A DNA stretch of 64,000 nucleotides, from the NCBI GenBank assembly GCA_030062745.1, contig CP099847.1:24166923-24230922 (forward strand), read 5' to 3'. A program made the position numbers and the translations under genes. Below the pieces are notes generated by a model that saw only the letters and a program-made list of their open reading frames with translations, was not told the DNA's origin and did no database searches. This document shows positions 60 through 59,100 of this stretch, one piece after another (the stretch's first letter is position 1; every line of letters starts with the position of its first letter). Source of the stretch: Capitulum mitella (Eukaryota > Arthropoda > Thecostraca > Pollicipedomorpha > Pollicipedidae).

Positions 60-146
60 AGACTTTGCCTGTGGTTCGTTGGTTATTGGGGCTTAGGGGC
101 GCACCGACTGCAGGGTCATTCGGCGCCCAGACTGTGCCTGTGATTC
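60..146 (-). mobile_element. Very short retroposed element, copy 1, with 18 bp target-site duplication, in an ENT intron
   Basis: The element core is 78-128 (51 bp). It is flanked by AGACTTTGCCTGTGGTTC (60-77) and AGACTGTGCCTGTGATTC (129-146), which match at 16 of 18 positions and look like a target-site duplication. The core is identical to positions 19027-19082 read on the other strand, apart from the number of GGTT repeats at one end. Read on the minus strand it starts with a GGGCGCCGA...TCGGTGCGCCC hairpin and ends in an AACC tail, as expected for a LINE-mobilised element. Confidence 0.75.
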
Positions 147-7584: not shown

Positions 7585-8925
7585 TCACGACCAGACATCC
7601 TGCTTATACTGCCCCTCGTTCTGCATCTGCTTCACCAGCGCTATAGCCTCTTTGTCGGTCACTTGCTTAGCCTCTGCGACAGCCTCCACCACCATTTCTA
7701 GCACAGAGGCCGCCATGCCCTTCGCTTCACCACACACGTACATAAACGCGCCATCCTGCAACAACCAGCGCGCCAGCCGCTGGCGCTCCTCGGCTAGCAC
7801 GTGCTGCACGTAACGCTGCGGGCCGCCGGCGCGCGAGAAGACCACGTCGAGCCGCGAGAGGGCGCCGTCACGCAAAGCCGCCTCCAGCTCGTCCCGCAGC
7901 AGGTAGTCCCACTCCGGATGGCGGCAGCCGAACACGAGCCAGGCGGGCGCGCGCTGCCGGCGGGCGCGCCGCTCCTGCAGGAAGCCGGCCAGCGGCGCCA
8001 GCCCGGTGCCGGCGGCGACCAGGAGCAGGTGCGCGTCGGCATCCGGCGGCGGCCGGAAGCCGCCCGGCCGGCGCCGGTACACGGGCACGGCCGGCGGCGG
8101 CGTGGCCACGCGCAGCAGCCCGTCCAGCCAGCCGGTGCAGAGGCCGCGCCGCGGCGCCGTCACCACCGAGAAGATGAGCCGCAGCCGGCCGGGCTCCAGC
8201 AGCGGCGAGCTGCTCACCGAGTAGGGACGCGGCGCGGCCGGCGGCAGGTGCTCCAGCAACAGCTCGGCCGGCGGCCGGCACGACGGGAAGGCGGCCAGCA
8301 GCTGGAGAATGCCCAGGCCGGCGCCGCGCACCAGCGCCAGGTACTCGCCGCCGCCCTGGCGGCTGGCCAGCTCGCGCAGTCGGCGCCGCTCGCGCTCGTC
8401 GGCCGTGTGCTCCGGCAGCGCCAGCAGCAGCGGCTTCTTGGGCACGGCGCGGAGGTCGACGCACTGCGTCAGCAGCCGGCGCAGGGTGGAGCTCGGCGGC
8501 AGGTGCGCCGGCACCCGGGCCGCCTTTTTGGCCGTGCCGGGCAGCACGGACAGCCGGCACGGCCGGTCGGCGCGCGCGCCGGCGCCGAGCCGGTCCAGCA
8601 CGGCGGCCACCTCGGCGGCCGGGTTCGGACACAGCAGGCCGACCGTGTCGCCGGCGGCCGGCGGCTCGTCCAGCGCGCCGGCGTCCAGCGTCAGCGACCA
8701 CACCGTCTTCAGCGCGGCCGGCGAGGTCAGCCGGGCGGCCTCGAGGACCGGCGCGCGGCAGACGGGCCCGGCCGCCAGCGGCAGCGGGCCCAGCGGGCCT
8801 CGGTCCGTCTCAGGGCCGGGCGCGTCCGCGTCGTCCAGGTACTCCAGCTGGAGGAAGCGGGCTGGAGCGGCCGGCACGGAGAGCGTCACGCCGGCCAGGG
8901 CCTCCGACAGCTCCGCCAAGGACAT
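7585..8925 (-). CDS. MTRR: Methionine synthase reductase, FAD- and NADPH-binding half
   Basis: MTRR uses NADPH to re-activate the cobalamin of methionine synthase. This uninterrupted 446-codon frame covers the linker end, FAD-binding and NADP-binding modules. Seen: an LTV/SVPAAPARFLQLEYL start like the human linker, PGTAKKAARVPAHLPPSSTL and RAVPKK (family connecting domain), FPSCRPPAELLLEHLPPAAP followed by RPYSVSSSP (residues 233-241, FAD site), GLCTGWL, GTGLAPLAGFLQERR (306-320, pyrophosphate/NADPH loop), FGCRHPEWDYL (332-342), YVCGEAKGMA (396-405), and a C-terminal QDVWS with the aromatic Trp found at the end of MTRR. The usual protein is about 700 aa with an N-terminal flavodoxin domain; none is found in the 1.5 kb upstream. 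The ATG at 8925 may be internal: the frame is open upstream to an acceptor-like AG (exon start at 8934). Ordinary cytochrome P450 reductase is less likely because of the QDVWS end and the LEHLPPAAPRPYS context. Confidence 0.9.
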   Translation of the reverse strand: MSLAELSEALAGVTLSVPAAPARFLQLEYLDDADAPGPETDRGPLGPLPLAAGPVCRAPVLEAARLTSPAALKTVWSLTLDAGALDEPPAAGDTVGLLCPNPAAEVAAVLDRLGAGARADRPCRLSVLPGTAKKAARVPAHLPPSSTLRRLLTQCVDLRAVPKKPLLLALPEHTADERERRRLRELASRQGGGEYLALVRGAGLGILQLLAAFPSCRPPAELLLEHLPPAAPRPYSVSSSPLLEPGRLRLIFSVVTAPRRGLCTGWLDGLLRVATPPPAVPVYRRRPGGFRPPPDADAHLLLVAAGTGLAPLAGFLQERRARRQRAPAWLVFGCRHPEWDYLLRDELEAALRDGALSRLDVVFSRAGGPQRYVQHVLAEERQRLARWLLQDGAFMYVCGEAKGMAASVLEMVVEAVAEAKQVTDKEAIALVKQMQNEGQYKQDVWS

Positions 8926-10443
8926 GACGGTCAGCTGCCGGCTCTCAGGACCGTATCAAGCCCGGTTTCCGCCCCGGTACCTCTTCAAGGCCGTTGTCCG
9001 CTGCCGAGACCACCTCAATGCCCGCTGTGGTTCCTCCTGTCTCCCAGGCCGCCACGGTATGCTCTATTGCTCTTGAATCCGGTGCACTGCGGCTTCTCGA
9101 GGAGAGCTTCCAGGGCCCGCTCAGGGCTTCTCGGAACCTCTGCTGGACGCCAACAGCAACCTGCGAGAGACGCCGACCGACTTAGCAGGCGTCTAGCTCA
9201 CTTGGGATATCTACAATTGAAGCCGAACCTGAAGTAAAGCGAGCCTCAGAAGAACGGACGTTTCCAGTAATACCGCCACATCCTAGCATTGTCCTTCGAC
9301 TATGGCAAATCCGTTCCCAAACAGGGGAGTTCACGGAAAAGGGGAGGAAAGGATAGAACTCGTGACATGCTGAAAGTAAAAGTGTGTTATATGATCGGTT
9401 AAGGTGAAATGCGTCCTGTTTGCATTTTATTTCACAAAAAAAACAGTTCTAGGGGTGATTTGGGTATCTCATATGGCGGAGGTCTGGAAGGCACCATGCT
9501 TTTTGAAATCGGAAATAAGAAATGTTACTGATCTGATTTCCACTTCGCTTTTCTAGTAGGTGACACTAATCACGTTGTCTGTAATGGACAAAAGTTAAAT
9601 ATTCACGTTGCAGCCAAACGTAAACTGGTTAAGTCTCCTTGAAACAGTTAAGTGAGGCCACCACGTCTGTGCGTAACGCTCCATTATCGACCGAAAGTGT
9701 TGTCTCCACAGTCGTCAAGCGGTGAGAAGTCAAAAACGCATTTGCATAAACTGTCTGTATGTGTTCTTAACGGACACAATACACCACATAGAACAGCACC
9801 GCAAGCACCAAACTTGCCCACGATGGCCCTGATTTTATTCAGACAGTGTCTCTTCAAGGCATATCGGTGACTTAAAATTGCAATAAAATACGACTTTTGA
9901 TTCAGTAAACAAAATACGACGTCGCCAAATAAACCAACGGGCTGCACGTACCACGTCTTTACTATGCTAAGAACAATTCAGATTATGTTTGATCACCGAG
10001 TCTCTAGCATAAATGCTATTCTTAGGTCTCTACTGAGTCTACTGCCATAAAGCATCTGCTGCACTTCTGGTACCAGAATCACTCTGGAGCACATAAGCAG
10101 TTATGCTCAAGCGTGACCGTGTACCTAATGACGAGGTTTCTACTAAGTCTCCTGAACAGCATCACAAATCACCACTCACGAGAGGGCATCGGTTGCGACT
10201 GGCCAGGCGTGGGACCCGTTCCCGCCTGTTCGCGTTTGCACGATGAGGATCGACCCACACGACGAACTCAGTCCATAAAACAAGCCCTAAGCGCCTGCCT
10301 TGGAGGGCACACAAGGCCAACGCGTCTACGCCGCCGAGCGGAGGATTTCCAGCGCCACACGCGTCCTGGCCGTTACCCGCGGCCTCGGACACACCGTCCC
10401 GCCAGCGGGAGGTCGCGCGCAGACCGCTCCCACGAGGCCGGCC
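8926..10443. other. Stretch upstream of MTRR; no flavodoxin domain found
   Basis: Positions 8981-9160 (minus) form a 60-codon open stretch bounded by TCTCTCGCAG and GAG|GTACCG, a possible linker exon. From 9185 to 10440 the DNA is mostly AT-rich and I see no flavodoxin motif (no GTGDPPD- or GLGDS-like peptide). The minus strand has AATAAA at 9839-9834, which could serve TTC1. Confidence 0.45.
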
Positions 10444-19011: not shown

Positions 19012-19097
19012 CGACAGGCAGAGCTTTGGGCGCCGAATGACCCTGCAGTCGGTGCGCCCCTAAGCCCCAATAACCAACCAACCGACAGGCAGAGCTT
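19012..19097 (+). mobile_element. Very short retroposed element, copy 2, with perfect 15 bp target-site duplication
   Basis: Core 19027-19082 (56 bp) is flanked on both sides by CGACAGGCAGAGCTT (19012-19026 and 19083-19097), an exact 15 bp duplication. It starts GGGCGCCGAATGACC, pairs with TCGGTGCGCCC in a hairpin, continues CCCCAATAACC and ends in an AACC repeat tail. The same core occurs inverted at 78-128. The short length, simple-repeat tail and duplication size point to insertion by LINE machinery. Confidence 0.82.
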
Positions 19098-20148: not shown

Positions 20149-23100
20149 GTGAGTACCGCACGGGTGACACCAGACCCTGGCGTCGGTCGGCTCGGGTCGG
20201 CTCGGCCGAAACGGGACGCCGGCGGGGTGACTGTGGGAGAGCGCGGGTGGGTTCCGGCGGGGCAGGGGAGTTAGCGGGAGGACGGTGGGAGAGGCAGGTG
20301 GGTCGTGGCGGTGTTTGTGGTGGGAGGACGGCGGGACGACTGGGTGGACCCACGACCAGGGTTCGGTGGGACGAATAGTTACCGGGAGCATGGTGGGACG
20401 GTGCGCGTGGATCGTGGCGGAACAGAACATAGGTAGGAGGACGGTGCGACGGGCGTATGGGTCGTGGCAGGACAGAGCGTTAGTGGGAGGATGGCCTTTG
20501 TCGGGCCTTTGCCTGATGGGACGGGACCCTGGTGGGACGCCGCTGAGGGGTTGGAGGTGGGACACAGGTTGGGGTCGGTTGGCACGATACACCGTGCCAA
20601 GTTTGCTGCGCTCGCAAGGCCTCGTCACACGTTTTGTTCGTGTCTGTTAAGGCTGCTTTGGATTTGTTGGTGGTCGGCGTTTGAGTGAATGGTTGCCGTC
20701 TCCATTGTGTGCAGGTGCACCGGGTTGTACTTCGTCTACCCATGCACGTGTTTTTCTTCGCGAGCAGGCTTTGTTGAATGCGATTCGTCGCCAACTCGGT
20801 AGAATCTTACAGTTTGCTACGTAAGTGAGTAGGCTATTTTGGGGGACGACCTTTATATTTTAATGCGCTTCCGGAAACATTTGACGACCATGAGAGGACC
20901 TTTTGCTTCATTACCGAACAACGCACTCCACTGCATTTGCATGCCATGTGGGACACGGCTGATGTAATCTTGCACGCCATGCAGCTTTGGATGGGGGGAT
21001 GGAGGGGGGGGGGGCGGTGTGCCGCCGCATCGCCGCACTCCCACGCTTCTGCGCAGCGAACTGAGCGCGCCGGAAGCTGGGCACATCCGGTCGATTTTGC
21101 GGCAGTGCAGCCTTTCTTCTCTGTCCTACGCCGACTGGCGTCCTGCCACACATCTCGTCCGTTTTTCGTTCGGAAAGTTTATGGGCTTGATTGCCTCTTT
21201 CCCGGGGGAAATCACGTGATTCAGAGATGTTCTTGAGGACTCGCTGATTTCCACGCAGCGACCGGCCGATGTTTCCTCGCTGAGCTCTATGACGTGCTCC
21301 TGCTGTCTGGTGACTGCGGACCGGCTGACAGCTGAGCGCGGCGTCGGTCTGCTGGGCCGCCGAGTGCCCCGTGACCCGGCGTGGCGCGGGGCATCCCCCG
21401 GCAGGGCGCGGGGCACCCTCCGGCGGAGCGCGGGGCACCCTCCGGCGGAGCGCTGGGCACCAACCGGCGGGGCGCGGGGCACCCTCCGGCGGGGCGCGGG
21501 GCATCCTCCGGCAGGGCACGGGACACCCTCCGGCGGGGCGCGGGACACCCTCTGGCGGGGCACGGGGCACCCTCCGGCGGGACATGGGATGCGTTCCGTC
21601 GCGGCGGTGGAGCGGCACGAGCAGGCTGGTCGGCACAGGCGCGTGCGGCCGGCCGCGCTGGGCCGAAGCCGCGGCTGCGGTCTGGCACCGGGGAGGGATG
21701 ACGACAGCGCTTCCGTAGTGATGTGTCTGACCGAGGTGGCCCGGATCCCGCGCCGGAGGCTGATGCAGCCCCCTGTTCCGGGTGGACGTCAGGGAGGTGA
21801 AATGCCGAGATCTGACGGCTGTCTGTTTGCAAGCGCCCGTCGTGACGTGTTCGTTGATTGTCGGAGGGGCCGGGGGTCGGAGGATGTCCTGAGATGGTCT
21901 GTGATGCTGTGAGATCGCTGCGGGTTCCGGGCATCGGGTCGGGGGGCCCGAACAGCGTTGCGTGGTGACGTGAGCCGCCTCAAGATGGCTCGAGGACACC
22001 GTGGGGAGAAAGCCGCTAATGCCAGAGGACGCTGCGGCATGTGTGAGTGTCACGAGAGATGCGAAGGGGACAATCAGAGGACGTCTTGAAGTGAAAGCTG
22101 GTGTTACCAGAGGCTTGTTGGAGTGTCGTGGTACGTTCGGAGAGTGTGGCAAAGTAAATACGGCTGGTGCCAGAGGACACCGCTGCCTGCTCAGATGTCG
22201 TGGTGCGGTCAGGGGCGGTCGAATTTGCCCGTCGGGCGCCGTTGCCGCTGCGGCCGCCGGCGTGCGGTCGCCGCTGGCCGCCCGCCAGTCGGCCGGCCCG
22301 CTGGCGTCGCGCCAGCTTCCGGCCGGCGTCGGCGCCGACGCGCCGCACGCCGTCGTCGGGCGGCGCCGCGGCGGCCGCACGGGCGCCGTGCGCCGTGACA
22401 TCAGCGGCCAGGTGACGCACTGGCCGGACACGTCAGGCGGGCACTCTGTCCCCCCCTCCCCCACGCCCCGGTTGTTACGTTGCCCGGGGAACGGGTCGCT
22501 GTGTCATCGCCGCCGGCGCCGGAGAACGGCGATCACGTGACATGCCGGCGCCGGAGAATGGCGGTCACGTGACCTGCCGGCGCCGGCCGCCGCTGCTGGC
22601 CTCAGAGCGGCCCGCCGGCGGCGTGGAAGCGTTTGTTTAGATTCGGCGGCAGCTGTTGGGAGGCGAGGGGCTGGGGTTTCGTTCGTTTGTGGCGACTGCC
22701 CTCGAACCGTTATCTAGTGTTGGTGCCCGTGCACAGTTCGGCCGCGTCTTGTGCAGAGTTTCCTGCTGGGGTATCCCGCGGGGCTTAATGCCCTGCTCGC
22801 TTTTCCTCTCTTTCACAGCCACCTAATCCGGCACTGAAGAGGGCATTTCGTCACCGTTAATTGCAGCGCAGGAGCCAGAGGGTCGGCTGCGTCGCATGTT
22901 ACGACCCTGCGACATGGCGCAGACCATACCAGACTTACATCATTCGGTGTCCTCAGTAACAAAACACTCGAAAAGCCGCCATTCTGGTCAGATTGTAAGT
23001 ACCCATGAAGACTTACCGACGAATCTGGAGAGTTTTCCGGGTCACGCGTCAGGCAACCGCGCGACCCGCCACTGGGCTGAAGGCTTTGCTGCCGGCGGCC

Positions 23101-47100: not shown

Positions 47101-50100
47101 GGGAATTTACGGCCGAAAAACATGCGATGGTTTTAACAAGATCGAGGAAGTGCGTCACTTGAGTGACAACCTCAAAATTAATATCAGACCAAAATATCAC
47201 AGTTTTGTGTATCTGGTATGGTGCAGTATGTCCAGGGAAATCTATCCTGGAGAAGTCGGGGAGAGTTTTTAAACTTACGGTTGTGAAGTTGCGACCAAAT
47301 GTGTGGTACTGGTGGCCAAACACTATGAATACTATCGTACTCCTGTCTGCTCTTTCCTCATCAGATTCGGCTTCTCCCCTCTTTCCTTGTGCTGCTTCAA
47401 TTCATGGTCACACGCACATCACGCAACACCATCCGTACGTCTCGCATTGCTAGTAGTTCGGCGACCAGTAGCAGCTCCGGCCGGCACCGCCCGCCAGCGC
47501 CCGGCGGCAGCCGACCCACGCGAGGATGCCCGGCGGGCCGGTCCATCTAACATATATCGCGTCATAGACAATACTTTGTCTCCGGCTGGCAAAGTTCTAG
47601 TACCGTTAGATACAGAATTAACCAATAATGTGTTGTCCGGAAAATCGTAAAGGTCTATGGATCCATTGGATCATACTTGTGAAATAACTTCCAAAAATTG
47701 TGACGTATTTGAACCATCAACTGATAAGTCCTCTGTTGTAGCGCCTTATCATAGAAAGACAAATCACTGGCACCATTCGGTTTCTTGCTTAATTCCTTAA
47801 AACATCATACGCAATTTGCAATATTTTTTTATTGGATGCATAGCCACGTTGCCGAATATCAGATCACCACGCACAGGCAGACACACGCGGCCGCAAATCG
47901 CTCGATATCGTGGCAGTAGGTTGCTTTTGTTTCCGGTAAAATACAACCCATGTGGAAAATTTATACGTTTTCTTGTGCCAAATTGATCAACAGAAAGATG
48001 CCGAAAGTTTGGTGGTGTCATCGTGTACGGTTTGGATGCAATCGGCGGCGGAAAACGGAGGGAAGATCAGTGAACCCACTCCCCCCTTTAAACCCTCCTC
48101 CTGGGCGGTCGTGACTTACGGACGGGCGCACACGAGCCATATTAGGATCGTTTCCTGGATGTTACAGGAGCTTCTTTTAATATCAGTGCGCCCATCGGTA
48201 TCACAAGGGTGGACGATGTCACGTGTGCTCTTTTTAACGACAGGGTGCCTTTGTATGCACGGGCAACATTCGTCAGTGCGTTGTTTCCAAACTCTTATCC
48301 CCCTTCGACGGCTAACAATTTCGCATTTGGCGCCCTCACACACTGAAGGGTGGCCGCCCCCTTCGTCCCCCCCTCCGATCCCTGCGTGCATCCAAGTACT
48401 CAAAGTCAAAAATGTATTCGAATGGTGATATCTGGACGGAGTTCAGAAAGTTCATGCTGTTGTGCGGCGTGTTTTTGGCTCCGGGATGGTCTGTTGAAAC
48501 GTGTGCGCGGTTGGGATTGTTTACGAACTTCGAAGAATGAGACCGACTGAGAATGGCTTTGCTTTCACGGGTCGCTGATTCAGGAGTTGCGCAATAACCT
48601 GTCTGGTCGTTCACGGCTGCTTCCGCGCAGGCGAAGGTAAATAAGTACTTTTCGTTGATCCTTCCCTTGGCTGCCGCCAGTGGCCTTTGAATGTTGCTGC
48701 CGCCCCATCGTCGGCGGAATATTTTGCCTGGCCATGCATGTCGGGACGCGGGGCCGCTCCCGCGGCGGTACTGCAGTGCACGTGCGTGCACGTCCGAGGT
48801 AGCCGTCTCCGGCGGGATGGTGCCTGGACCCGCGGGAAGCGTTTACCGCGCAGCTGAGCGGCAGTGAAGCGATGGCTGGCTGGCATTAATGCCTCGTAGT
48901 GGAGCGGGGGACGTGCTGGAGATAAGTTAAGCTTGTTACACCGGTAACTGAGGTGATCCGCTCAGCGGCCATGCGCATGCCATTGTGTACGATATCGGCC
49001 AGGATGGGACTGGTGGGGTCCTGAGCGTGAGGCTGAAGCGGCGCTGCGGCTTGCGTGGCGGCTAAGACCCTGACCTTGTTGGAGCGCCAGACAGATGTGC
49101 GCTGTGCCGCGAAGGTCATTGGCTGCCGCGGAACCCCGTGAACCCGGCTCCGTTTGTGGAGTGTGGCTTAGGACCCGGGCGCGTCGGCCCGTTCTGGTCC
49201 GTTATATAGCGGCCGTTATCATTCGTTAGCCTTGTCTGGGCACGGATTACCGAGTCTGGGTGGGTGGAATGCTGCAGGCTACTCTTGACTGGGAGACCAT
49301 CCCAGTCAAGAACAGGTTGTTTTTTTTAAGACGACTGTATCCTTGTAATCCTTGGCCACGCTCGTCGATAGTACCTCATGAAATGATTTTTAACGTAGCA
49401 TGTCTTGACAGAAAACATCGCACTTCGGTTGTAATTGGTCTGAACACTCTTGTGTGATTAAGCATTCTGACCCAGCTTGTTACAAACGCTTATAAATAGC
49501 AATACTCCATTTGTTTGTCACATGGCCGAAATATACCCTGCTTGCCGGTCGGAGTGGATGTCCCTGTATCGTGAGAATCGCAAACCGTTTTTCCGAACTG
49601 TCCTCTTGTTCTCGTTAGCCTTCACGGAGCCGGCCCGTTCCCGCCGGTCCGCCCGCCGTCACTGACCCGACCTGACCCGCCGACCCGCCCGCCGTCACTG
49701 ACCCGACCTGACCCGCCGACCCGTCCGCCGTCACTGACCCGACCTGACCCGCCGACCCGCCGTCACTGACCCGACCTGACCCGCCGACCCGCCGTCACTG
49801 ACCCGACCTGACCCGCCGACCCGTCCGCCGTCACCGACCCGACCTGACCCGCCGACCCGCCCGCCGTCACTGACCCGACCTGACCCGCCGACCCGCCCGC
49901 CGTCACCGACCCGACCTGACCCGCCGACCCGCCCGCCGTCACCGACCCGACCTGACCCGCCGACCCGCCCGCCGTCACCGACCCGACCTGACCCGCCGAC
50001 GCCGTTGGCAGGAGGCAGGCCGAGGTGGAGATCACCGAGCAGCCGGCTCCGAAGGCTCTCCGGTTCCGGTACGAGTGCGAGGGCCGCTCGGCGGGCAGCA

Positions 50101-53100: not shown

Positions 53101-56100
53101 GACGTCAGTGCGGCGCTCTGGGGCCGCCCGGCCCCGGGGATTTGCCCTGTGCTGACCGGCCGGGCCACCGTGGACAGCCCTGCCTCCGTCAGGCGGGCTT
53201 CTCTGTCCCGGCCCGGTCCACCGTGGACAGCCCTCACTCCGTCAGGCGGGCTTCTCTGTCCCGGCCCGGTCCACCGTGGACAGTCCTCCCTCCGTCAGGC
53301 GGGCTTCTCTGTCCCGGCCCGGTCCACCGTGGACAGCCCTCCCTCCGTCAGGCGGGCTTCTCTGTCCCGGCCCGGTCCACCGTGGACAGTCCTCCCTCCG
53401 TCAGGCGGGCTTCTCTGTCCCGGCCCGGTCCACCGTGGACAGCCCTCCCTCCGTCAGGCGGGCTTCTCTGTCCCGGCCCGGTCCACCGTGGACAGTCCTC
53501 ACTCCGTCAGGCGGGCTTCTCTGTCCCGGCCCGGTCCACCGTGGACAGCCCTCCCTCCGTCAGGCGGGCTTCTCTGTCCCGGCCCGGTCCACCGTGGACA
53601 GCCCTCACTCCGTCAGGCGGGCTTCTCTGTCCCGGCCCGGTCCACCGTGGACAGCCCTCACTCCGTCCGGGGGCGGCTGTGTCCCTGCCCGGTCTGCCCT
53701 GTGTCCTCTACATCGGTTATCCGGTCATGGCCGCACGTTGGGGTGTCACTGACCAGTTTGCGAGTGGCGGCGTGGGTGGCGTTGAAAATCTCCGGTCGGA
53801 TTTTGGATGAAATGTATCGCCGATCGCTGCCGTACCTTGCGTTACAGCGTGTGTCACCACCACTGCACATTGCTCCTGGAGAATCACGTATTTTCGAAAC
53901 ATGAAATTATTGGGCAAAGTGGCATTCGTTCGCGTCCACAAATTGCTCCGGTATTGGCCTTTGTCAAGTTCTGTAAGTGGCCTTACAGTCGATGTTTTTA
54001 TTGTCGTCTGACCTTACGTAGTACCGGCGGAAATACCAGGGGCTGGTCCTTCCGGCACTTTCAGCATCCAACGAAACCAAGTAATGCTTTTCTCAAGGCT
54101 CTGGTAGCTGTTTCATGTGGATTCTTAAAATGTTTGTGGCTGTCCATTATGTCACAAGAGTGACGAATTGATACGTAGCGGAAGATAAGTGTGAATCCCG
54201 TTCATGTGTATAACCAAAAAAGGAGCGGAATGGGCACCTCGTTGCTCATTTCTGTTCTTGAGGTGGAAAATAACTATGAGCACCCGAAAGGGGGACCGTT
54301 CGATCTCGGTAATTTTGGATACCGTTTATGCGATGGTAGGAACGAAAGATCCTGCAGTCGTCATCACCACTGGCCCAGAAGCCCATCAGATGTGAGTCGC
54401 TGGACGGCTTGGATGACCTCGACCGTGTGACCCCGACTGTCTGCCCCTGAAATGACCGCTGACCTGACGACTGACCCCGTGACCGACCCATGACCACCGC
54501 AAACTAGCTGCCCCTTCCCCTCTCACCCCTTTCCCTTGCTGATCCTCGGCGGACCCCCGACCCCGCTGATCTCCACCGCCCCTGGCCGACTCCCACTGAC
54601 CCAGCTGACCCCGGCTGGCCCCCGCTGACCTCCTCTGATATTGTCCGGCAGCCGGGTTCGACCACCGGCTGCACCCGACCACGATCGACCTGAACACGGT
54701 GCGGCTCTGCTTCCAAGTGTTCGTCGAGGGCCGGGAGCGTGGCAAGTATGTCGTGCCGCTGAAGCCCGTCGTCTCCGACGCCATCTTCGACAAGAGTGAG
54801 TGCCGTCCGCCGGCCGGCCGCGGCGGCCCGTGAGCGCCGAGTCACTCACGCGGGGGGAGTGCCCGTGCTGTCCAAGGTCGAAGTCGGGCGGTGGTGCGAG
54901 GACGCACTTCTGGGCCCAGTTTGGTTGCCCCAGCCGCGGGAAGGGGTGGTTTGTGGATGGCGCCTGTGTGATATGGTGGTGGCTCCCTCCTTGCCTCGCG
55001 GTGTCGATTTCTGGGTCATTGGCCAAGTGAGACACCACGTGCCGCAAAGATACGTGCCATTCGGTGTGTTACGATTGGCGCATATCCGCGAGTTTATTCC
55101 TCAAGGGACTCATGGCCCTTTATCGTACTCGGCGAATTGAGTAGGCTCGCCTTTCAGTCGACGAGTGTTGCCGGAATCCCGACCATCTCCGGTGATCAGG
55201 CCAGATTAGCCGTTCAATGGGGCTGGCGTGTCGGCGTGACTCACGCGCGAATGAATGGACGCCGCCGTTGCCGCTGCCGGTGCGCCCTGAGATTACGGTG
55301 ACTCACAGCGTCGGCGCCGCGATCGATTGGCCCGCCCGGAGCCCGACCTTTAGAAGCCGCGTAAAGCCCGAAAGGAGCGTGGCCCACGCTGCTCGTGCCG
55401 TGACTCAGACGTGCCGTGTATAGTCACAGCAGGTCATACGAGGGCGCCGGGACTGCGCTCTGGAGCCGTCGGCTTTATTATTGTGATATTGATTGTTGTA
55501 ATTGGAGTCAGGTGTTGAAAGGGTTTTACGGGAATATTACTGTCGGTTTTTCCGGGCAAAATGGCACCAGATGGCCTATTTGTTCCATGAACAAGACTCC
55601 AAGTGTAGCAGACACGGCGTCAAACGTTCGTTGGGCTGCCTACGTAAAGGGCTTAATTACCGTTGCTTACCTTCATGGAATCATTAGCCCTCCTTGTAAC
55701 CCATGGTATGCCCTTTGATGACCCACTGCGGTGAGCATTCCGGCAGTAAGTCTTTCTTACCATTATCGTACTGTTTTCAGAGTCAATGTGCGACCTGGTA
55801 ATATACAAAATGTCCGACTGCTCGGCGTCAGTAGCCGGCGGCAAGGACATCATCCTGCTCTGTGACAAAGTGACCAAAGGTGAGTCGCACCGACCATTCC
55901 CAGGCGTTGGACGTCACATATCTCTCGGCCGCTATAGGACTTAACGTCAGGAGATGGTGAGCCTGGCACGACCGATGACCGTCCTGACGCCACTCTGCGT
56001 CTGCACTCCGTCTGTACTGCTGTTGCGCAGCAGCGTGAACCGCAGCTCCTCAGCACGTGGGGCTGCGTAACATCGGGCCCGGCCGGTTTTCTGCGTCTGC

Positions 56101-59100
56101 GGCACACATCCGGCCGAGACTGGGTCGCAGTGAACGGCGGAGCGTGCGGGCCCGGCGCGCGGCCGGCCGCCCGCACCGGACCCCGGCTGGATTTCCCGGG
56201 CGCCGGCGCGCCGGCCGGTCTGCTCCAGTGGCCTGGTTGCCGCCGGCGCCGCATTGGATTGCCTCACCGCTGCTGGGACGCGCCTCCGGGAGCGCGGGGA
56301 CTTAGCGGGCGGGAAATTTGACCGCGCGAACCAGTTGAGCCGATAGATCCGACACAGATTGGGCTTATCCCGCATGTGATCAGCGTATAAGCATCCATAA
56401 GTAATGTGACTTCGAGTGACGGTTTGATTGTCATGGGCCCATGGCCTCAAAACATGACTGTAATGGGTGCGTGGCCTTAAAAGTTTTCTTTGCCCTAAAT
56501 TCCTCAGTCGAATTACTCTCAGATGCCGCTTGCTTCACGCGAGAAACAGGGTTACGTATGTCCTTCCCAAATTTGGCATGCCGCCGTCGTTGGTAGCTTC
56601 CGGCTCTTGTTTCACGCCGTGCCGTTGAAACTTTGTCGCTGGTCTGGCGCCGCGTCCCAAAGTCTAACCCGCCCGCCCGTGGCCGGACAGACGATATTGA
56701 GGTGCGCTTCTTCGAGGTTCGCGACAACCGGCTGTACTGGGAGGCGTTTGGCGAGTTCCTGCCGGCCGACGTGCACAAACAGGTGGCCATCTGCTTCAAA
56801 ACGCCACGCTACGCCACACTGGAGGTGAGCGTGCCACAGGTGACATCGACCGGTGACGGACTCTTTACGTGCTGTGGATCTGACGCATTGAAGGATGTTG
56901 AGTGGCGTGCCGTGGCAGTTTCTCTTTTTTTGCCGTGTGTTATCATTATGTAAAAATGCGTTTTGGGGCGCTTGCCGGATCGTTATTTGCAGTGAACTAG
57001 GTGCTTGCGGTACAGGCATGTGTCGAGTACGTTCTTTTTTCACAGCCGGCATTGTTTTCTAGTTTCGTCGGTGTATGATGAACCTAGTAATCTTGGTAAT
57101 CTTGCCTTGCCGTCCCAGTGAAAATCTGTGTGACTGTATCTTCACCTTGCATCCGAGTGGGTGTGGGAGATGGGCGGATAACGGACCTGTTTGAGCAGAT
57201 GCGGTCCCGTGTTAGCCGACGCTGTCCGCCGCGTGACGTCCCGTCCGCGATCCGGGCTTCCCGGCTCCGCCTCCGGCCACTGCCGCCGTCCGTGACCTTT
57301 TCTCGCGGCGCCGCGTGTTTCCCCGTGCCGTCGGTGACGGCAGCGCTGCGCGCCGACAGATGGAGGCGCCCGTCCGGGTCCAGATCCAGCTGCGCCGGCC
57401 GTCGGACAAACAGTGCAGCGAGGCGCGAGCCTTCACCTTCACGCCGCTCGACTCAGGTAGGCCCTTCTGGTCGTTCAAGCGCGCCAAGACGCACGTCTCG
57501 CTGTTCCACCGGCTGATGAGCTGGGAGAGCGGCGACGAGCCGAGCGCCAAGCGCTGCTCCTCGGCCGACGGCCGCCGCTCGGCCGAGCTCGCCTCGGCCG
57601 TGCTCGACTCGCTCGGCGCGCCGGCGCGGCCGCGCGACGGCGCCGCCTCGGCCGCCGACTCGGTCTCGGTCGGCGAGCTGCTCTCGGGGGCGGGCGGCCG
57701 CGACTCGCTGCTGCCGCGCGCCCCGCCGGCGGCCGAGCCGCAGCCGCCGCTGCCGCCCAAGCGCCACCACCGCGCCAAGCGCGACCCGGACGGAGACGAC
57801 TACGCGCTGCCGATGCCGGCCAACGCGCAGCTGGAATCGCCCAGCAAGGCCGAGCTGCTGCTGCGCCGGTACGCCGCGCCGCCGCGCGCCGGCCGCCTGG
57901 CGGCCGACCTCAGCAACGGCAACTACGAGCGCGTCGAGCAGATGGCGCTGTACGCGGGCGTGGCGCCGCTGGCGTCGGCATCCGAGTTCGACGAGACGAG
58001 CCTCTCGTACTTCGACGTGGAGAACAACCTGAGCTCGCCACCGCCCAAGCCGAGCCACGACGACGAGGAGATCTACTCGGCCTGGATCCGGCGCTGGGGC
58101 AGCGTCACCTCCATACCGACCACGGTGCTCGACCTTTACGTGTAGAGGCTGCGCCCGGTCGCGTTTTCCTGGACGGGCGGGCAGGGGCTGGAGGGCCCGC
58201 TGCGGCGTGCTGGCCGCCCGGGTCGTGTTTCGTTCGGCTGACGTGATTGGCCGGACCTCGCGGTCCGGTCCGGCGACGGACGCTGGTTGGTCGGTGCTCT
58301 GGGTTTCCGGTTTTGGCCGGTTTTGCTGCCCGGCGGATCGGGCGTTTGCCGTCGCGGGTGTGGGGAGCGGAGTCTCTCAGGCGACAAGCCGCGCGCGAGG
58401 AGTGACTTTTTTCGACGTTGTCGGTGTTTGGCTCCGCTGATGAGGGCCCGGCTCATAATTTGTTGTCATTGAATTTGGTGTAGTATTTTTACTTGCGTTT
58501 CGACAGTGCTGCTCATTTGTGGACAGCCGCTTATGGCGCTGTCTTTTGTTTTTGTAGCTGCGTCCGCGACGGCGGTGAAGACGTTGTTCTGCTCCCTCCT
58601 AGTCACTAGTCGCTAGTCGCTGAATGCTTCAACGGATCTAGTCGTGATCGCAGGGTTGGGTTGTGCGACCCTCTCGTTTGTGGTCTGTCAGTCTTGCCGG
58701 CGCGTGGAGGCTGTTGTTTTTGTTGTTTGTGTATGACCTGACCAGGTGGTTTGCCCGCTGAGTGTTCCCCTCCGTGCTGTTGTGAACCCTGTGGGGGCTC
58801 TAACCCGTGTGTGCGTGTCTGCCCCTCCAGACGGCATCGAGGAGAAGAAGCGAAAGATGGCGCGCAACTCGGGCCGTCTGCAGCGCTATTTGACCGATAA
58901 CCTGGGCGATGACAGCTCCAGTGAGTTGACGTTTCAGAGGCAGGCCTGGCGGCGCGTGGTGGTGGCTTGGCTTGGGCTGAGGAGTCGATTGGCTCCTCCG
59001 TGGCCGTGCGGTCGGCCGCCGGTGAATGGACCCGCGTGGTCTTTTCTCCGTCTCTGTCTCTGTCTCTGCCTGAGTTGTTTCTCGCGGGATGACTGAAGGT

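Follow-up and report, generated by a model that had tools for sequence, protein, structure and literature searches.

A 56-nt tail-only retroposon in Capitulum mitella that matches the 3′ terminus of its partner LINE

Two copies of a short retroposon in the window

The window analyzed here is a stretch of 64,000 nt from the Capitulum mitella genome (assembly GCA_030062745.1, contig CP099847.1, forward-strand positions 24,166,923 to 24,230,922). The features identified in this window are as follows:

19012..19026, + strand: 5′ target-site duplication CGACAGGCAGAGCTT
19027..19082, + strand: tail-only retroposon comprising T1, the hairpin and the AACC-repeat tail; the partner LINE ends in an identical sequence
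19028..19059, + strand: GC-rich hairpin GGGCGC...GCGCCC, recognized from its fold and its loop variants; terminal loop variable, here CTGCAG
19060..19082, + strand: 3′ tail CTAAGCCCCAATAACC followed by AACC repeats
19083..19097, + strand: 3′ target-site duplication; its first C also closes the AACC run
74..129, − strand: second retroposon copy (98% identity over 56 nt)
130..142, − strand: 5′ target-site duplication of the second copy, CACAGGCACAGTC (read directly)
61..73, − strand: 3′ target-site duplication of the second copy, CACAGGCAAAGTC, one mismatch (read directly)
7588-8955, − strand: open frame in which FAD_binding_1 and NAD_binding_1 domains are found, resembling a methionine synthase reductase-type flavoprotein
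57237-58142, + strand: weak Rel-homology dimerization match (RHD_dimer, E 6.9e-06, below the Pfam cut-off)
21376-21581, 49640-50000 and 53156-53694: GC-rich tandem arrays with units of 22, 36 and 53 bp

A sequence-only reading of this window had described a perfect 15 bp target-site duplication around a 56 bp core, and we find the two repeats of CGACAGGCAGAGCTT exactly so, at 19012-19026 and 19083-19097 on either side of the core at 19027-19082; the second copy has a flanking repeat of its own (13 bp, one mismatch). Eight clusters of exact 15-mers repeated within 200 bp were found in the window, five of them in tandem arrays; the repeat bracketing the core is one of the three located outside such arrays. 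The core consists of one T followed by the GGGCGC...GCGCCC hairpin, CTAAGCCCCAATAACC and AACC repeats. The hairpin proposed by the sequence-only reading was recovered when the core was folded, with a free energy of −15.3 kcal/mol (z = −1.54; 18 of 200 shuffled sequences folded equally well or better); judged on energy alone, its stability is modest and unexceptional. A 52-base pattern of the core had no match in 100 shuffles of the window, and neither a tRNA gene nor an Rfam match was found in the window.

The window contains four occurrences of the motif ACAGGCANAG (63-72, 132-141, 19014-19023 and 19085-19094; 0.42 occurrences expected), all of them in the duplications of the two core copies; by eye, the motif is absent from the other short-copy duplications listed. 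Its presence at both window copies raised the idea that the flanks are part of the element. This idea was rejected because flanks differ among most of the copies listed. The 86 duplications examined showed only a weak preference, for T before the site and for C or A at its second base.

Copy number, duplications and the fixed 5′ end

The genome (477 Mb in 16 contigs) contains 1,686 places that match a 36-base stretch of the hairpin with ≤3 mismatches, as compared to none for the reversed control of this stretch in the same genome; 780 places are exact over 49 bases of the core. Contig C1 was used to define the structure of the copies. Its set comprises the exact matches to the 36-mer among the matches listed, which were ordered by mismatch and place; because all 85 C1 copies match the 36-mer exactly, older copies are under-sampled in this set. 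All 85 were read, and 81 are short copies and four are attached to a LINE. Upstream of the core, sequence matching the LINE extends either 0–3 bases (81 copies) or >100 bases (four copies), and the base preceding GGG in the 81 short copies listed is T in 78, with A, C and G found in one copy each. No more than 76 of these copies represent independent insertions, since five of them (L079, L095, L096, L123 and L131) carry a single insertion located inside another repeat, and two others (L025 and L026) have common flanks. The core insertion in the former is found with identical flanks in six C1 and C2 places (the five above and L132); this insertion rides inside another, multiplied repeat family. 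Because reading of contig C2 was incomplete (five matches known as LINE were left out and two others are unread) and all 85 C1 copies were read, the ratio of short to LINE-attached copies is given from C1 alone.

Altogether, 151 distinct copies were read, including 116 short and 35 LINE-attached copies; these two figures do not represent a genome ratio, because most LINE-attached copies were fetched as LINE junctions. T precedes GGG in 113 of the 116 short copies. If the 278 LINE-attached places (see below) are subtracted from the 1,686 matches, and the remainder is taken as short, as in the samples read, we estimate that the genome contains about 1,400 short copies cut at one base. Short copies among the matches listed look dispersed. 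At one place (L129; G000:C14:2193000-2193560), four cores lie head to tail at a spacing of 70 bp with the duplication gacctggatccgt between them; this seems to be a duplication-flanked tiny retroposon that has grown into a mini-satellite.

Target-site duplications and tails were scored for 95 short copies, among them eight (L001-L008) that were the best matches to a query that also spanned the flanks, as well as two units from the tandem array at L129; copies near a stretch end and copies with repeated flanks were omitted. A duplication was found for 90 of these copies and none for five. Most duplications (69/90) are 12–15 bp in length, with 13 or 14 bp being the commonest (49/90); five are just 7–9 bp long and weak. 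Perfect flanking repeats of at least 10 bp were present in 72 of the 95 copies, as compared to 0.77 expected when flanks were re-paired at random. One base separates the duplication from GGG in 62 copies, two to three bases do so in eight, and in 20 copies there are none, the T being common to element and target; a few short copies appear to begin at G2, or bear an extra A or T. One to four AACC units follow CCCCAATAACC in 87 of the 95 copies. The sequence-only reading had predicted a retroposon family of many copies with variable flanks, AACC tails and duplications of 10–18 bp; the genome-wide count agrees with this prediction, as do the flanks, tails and most of the duplications in the copies read.

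The partner LINE and its subfamilies

The core represents the 3′ terminus of a LINE of about 6.5 kb with predicted endonuclease, reverse transcriptase and RNase H domains. Three LINE-attached copies (L019, L033 and L037) share, at 99.4–99.6% over 1.3–1.6 kb, a longer element whose final 56 nt are the core, and in L033 all 56 nt of the core are identical to the LINE terminus. Three longer copies (L089, L091 and L092) have about 6.48 kb in common at 99.1%. Read from stop to stop, L091 contains an ORF1 of 566 aa, in which three CCHC-like motifs can be seen by eye and no Pfam match was found at E 0.001, and an ORF2 of 1,244 aa, which matches Exo_endo_phos_2 and Exo_endo_phos (PF14529/PF03372), RVT_1 (PF00078) and RNase_H (PF00075). 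The element is therefore an AP-endonuclease LINE with RNase H, probably of the I superfamily. The 3′ junction of the main LINE lineage is found at 135 places in the genome, and a looser count across lineages (AAGTTAT plus hairpin, ≤2 mismatches) gave 278; a pattern located close to the 5′ end of the LINE is present at 59 places. Clusters of LINE junctions, with spacings of about 10 kb in some cases, are found in the following regions:

G000:C8:9386021-9444034: cluster of LINE junctions
C10:9595138-9634655: cluster of LINE junctions
C14:20894808-21029086: cluster of LINE junctions
C16:5654417-5674372: cluster of LINE junctions

LINE and short copies are alike in their tails and duplications. 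One to four AACC units are present in 26 of 30 LINE copies, and among 10 truncated LINE copies with a readable 5′ end, six show a duplication of 12–15 bp (four directly at the 5′ end and two with 10–16 bases between) and four show none. The fact that the core is the LINE 3′ end might suggest that short copies are LINE copies that underwent ordinary random 5′ truncation. Scattered truncated LINE copies do exist; at 10 of 30 LINE loci, the LINE match begins within about 1.5 kb upstream of the core (−57 to −1478). However, random truncation cannot explain the short copies, because LINE truncations are scattered at a density of about 0.012 per base (about 76 over about 6.4 kb), as compared to an estimated 1,400 at a single base. 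The length distribution thus refutes random truncation, an origin to which we give practically no credence, and ordinary 5′ truncation, a possibility raised by the sequence-only reading, leaves the single fixed 5′ end unexplained.

The same reading had suggested that the core may be the conserved tail domain of a SINE. A conventional SINE would indeed be expected to show a hairpin, a simple-repeat tail and target-site duplications like those observed here. The tail belongs to the LINE, though, and no longer SINE form was found among the 151 distinct copies read; the longer copies, which might have revealed a truncated SINE, are the 35 LINE-attached ones. A search for the tail without the 3′ arm of the hairpin returned one place (L140), which looks like a worn hairpin, with a pattern that catches about 13% of unrelated upstream sequences. 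A longer SINE as the source was thus rejected, as none was found among the copies read or by the tail search; with neither a tRNA gene nor an Rfam match in the window, we consider it very improbable that the core is the tail end of a conventional SINE. The sequence-only reading was right that a conserved tail domain moves alone.

The hairpin stem is kept in the family and the loop varies, with 1,105 places presenting an exact stem with any six loop bases. The loops TTGTAG, TTGAAG, CTGTAG and TCGAAG recur among the matches listed, and substitutions in the AATG directly preceding the loop are rare (10 places). Of the variant copies, 22 were read (L141-L162): three (L141, L143 and L156) adjoin a LINE whose 3′ UTR clearly differs, and the other 19 are short copies, all of which have T preceding GGG. 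The TCGAAG and TTGAAG subfamilies include LINE-attached copies (L141 and L143 in the former, L156 in the latter) as well as short ones; the TTGTAG loop is found at 41 exact places, of which the seven read are short, and at two exact LINE junctions. Since these subfamilies have short copies starting at T, the same 5′ base is used by several lineages. The tail-only family combines identity to the LINE terminus, one common 5′ base, LINE-like duplications and tails, high copy number and recurrence in subfamilies. The element is a tail-only, LINE-mobilized retroposon and not a SINE.

Template of the short copies and comparison with known retroposons

The 5′ end of the short copies could be fixed by a short RNA with a defined end, which we prefer, or by a stop of the reverse transcriptase. 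We propose, with a probability of roughly 0.55, that the 3′-terminal 56 nt of the LINE are copied in trans by the ORF2 protein (ORF2p) from a putative end-defined short RNA. In other LINEs, the 3′ stem-loop is an established recognition handle bound by the ORF2 protein, according to excerpts of one report (PMC4176376). The source here would be the 3′-terminal 56 nt of the RNase H-bearing LINE, i.e., one U, the hairpin, CUAAGCCCCAAUAACC and AACC repeats. The partner ORF2p would recognize the hairpin and the AACC tail, nick the target, prime on the AACC repeats and copy to the end of the short RNA, whose own 5′ end would be fixed at U1. The short RNA may be a stable 3′ fragment of the LINE RNA that is cut or trimmed to the hairpin base, and bound ORF2p perhaps protects this fragment, such that the recognition handle would be copied without the rest of the LINE. 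A more far-reaching proposal, which we put forward tentatively and at somewhat below even odds, is that the 3′ recognition hairpin of the LINE is itself mobile, as an RNA of about 56 nt with a 5′ end set by structure that is copied several-fold more often than the LINE and in several subfamilies. The structure-set end may represent the footprint of bound ORF2p against 5′–3′ decay, and read-through transcripts of the element itself may even serve as templates for its replication.

A stop of the reverse transcriptase, the main alternative, appears to be a less likely way to fix the end, and it still carries appreciable weight. ORF2p copying a full LINE RNA would halt one base past the hairpin, and the stub cDNA would integrate; the template may also be a host RNA carrying a short copy, and the blocker may be upstream RNA or a bound protein. 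The end does fall one base beyond the stem, a stop could also give the G2 starts or the extra A or T, and host flanks transduced at the 5′ end were not spotted by eye among the copies listed. In addition, bases just upstream of the core pair with the tail in alternative LINE folds; for most of the lineages folded, this pairing has a low to moderate probability, and it could form a barrier. However, ends at one base in 113 of 116 copies, together with a duplication separated from GGG by no more than the T in 82 of 90, are sharper than expected of stalling. A stop would also predict that most insertions end at T1, but many LINE copies that extend past T1 reach the 5′ end (59 five-prime ends vs. 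135 three-prime junctions). At LINE 3′ ends (about L091 9452-9520, and L156), GUUAUGGG lies upstream of and across the core start; in some folds it can pair with the CCC...AUAAC of the tail, strongly so in L156, forming an outer stem that short copies do not contain.

A promoter in the 3′ UTR of the LINE might instead start an end-defined RNA at T1, or a few master genes might supply it, which we regard as improbable. The main lineage presents TTTTTAA 22–28 bases upstream of T1; however, this motif is not conserved in the four LINE-attached copies read from other lineages (L141, L143, L156 and L102), all of which keep the AAGTTAT adjoining the core, and a TATA-type promoter in the LINE 3′ UTR was rejected on this ground. 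Furthermore, transcripts rarely start at U, no tRNA was found in the window, and no credible Rfam match was found there or at the LINE 3′ end. The LINE presented a single Rfam match at its 5′ end and a single one at its 3′ end, both far below the gathering score; no credible ribozyme or processing motif was found at the LINE 3′ end with Rfam, and a ribozyme setting the end was rejected because neither LINE end has a credible match.

The family bears on the least RNA that a LINE enzyme copies in nature, as a hairpin and AACC tail totaling 56 nt suffice to be found as an insert, and on whether 5′ truncation stems from the enzyme or from the template. It represents a natural experiment run many hundreds of times, with the 5′ end set nearly to the base; the family, its partner LINE and the parallel subfamilies make a cut template and an enzyme stop directly testable against each other. 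If the hairpin is mobile by itself, few known retroposons would be as small, and it would drain its LINE. Tiny duplication-flanked inserts such as these may easily be missed by repeat annotation. A literature search with partial coverage returned no tail-only LINE retroposon with a fixed 5′ end, and Repbase or Dfam possibly list one; no exact match was found in collections of prokaryote and virus contigs, which says little on spread.

Elements that bear a LINE tail and are mobilized by LINEs are well known; SINEs add a head to this tail. The tail-only family has in common with SINEs a 3′ end shared with a partner LINE, target-site duplications, dispersal and many copies. However, a SINE has its own 5′ head (derived from tRNA, 5S or 7SL RNA) with a pol III promoter, whereas here the LINE tail stands alone and all 56 nt, including the first repeats, correspond to the LINE terminus. 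With 5′-truncated LINE copies, the family shares target-site duplications and a 3′ end and AACC tail identical to those of the LINE, but truncated copies have scattered 5′ ends and tail-only copies have one (78/81 on C1 among the copies listed; 113/116 overall). Short or non-autonomous LINE relatives in trypanosomatids, i.e., RIME, NARTc and SIDER, retain 5′ sequence of the LINE and are much longer. In eel, the LINE UnaL2 has UnaSINE1 as its SINE partner. In stringent LINE/SINE pairs, including those of eel UnaL2 and zebrafish ZfL2, the LINE recognizes a 3′ stem-loop and short repeats, as proposed here, and copying in trans extends to other RNAs that carry the same end, as described in excerpts of two reports (PMC4176376, PMC3747384). 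The parts of the latter report (PMC3747384) that concern a platypus snoRNA-derived retroposon describe an element that, like the one identified here, is short and lacks an internal pol III promoter, but its source is a cellular RNA and not a LINE tail. Therian tailless retropseudogenes, as portrayed in excerpts of PMC5322556, are likewise short and LINE-mobilized, have preferred end points set by RNA structure, and pose the same question of a cut RNA vs. the behavior of the enzyme. These retropseudogenes are L1-copied cellular RNAs that are truncated at the 3′ end and nearly intact at the 5′ end; the tail-only family, by contrast, derives from the LINE itself and has a fixed 5′ end.
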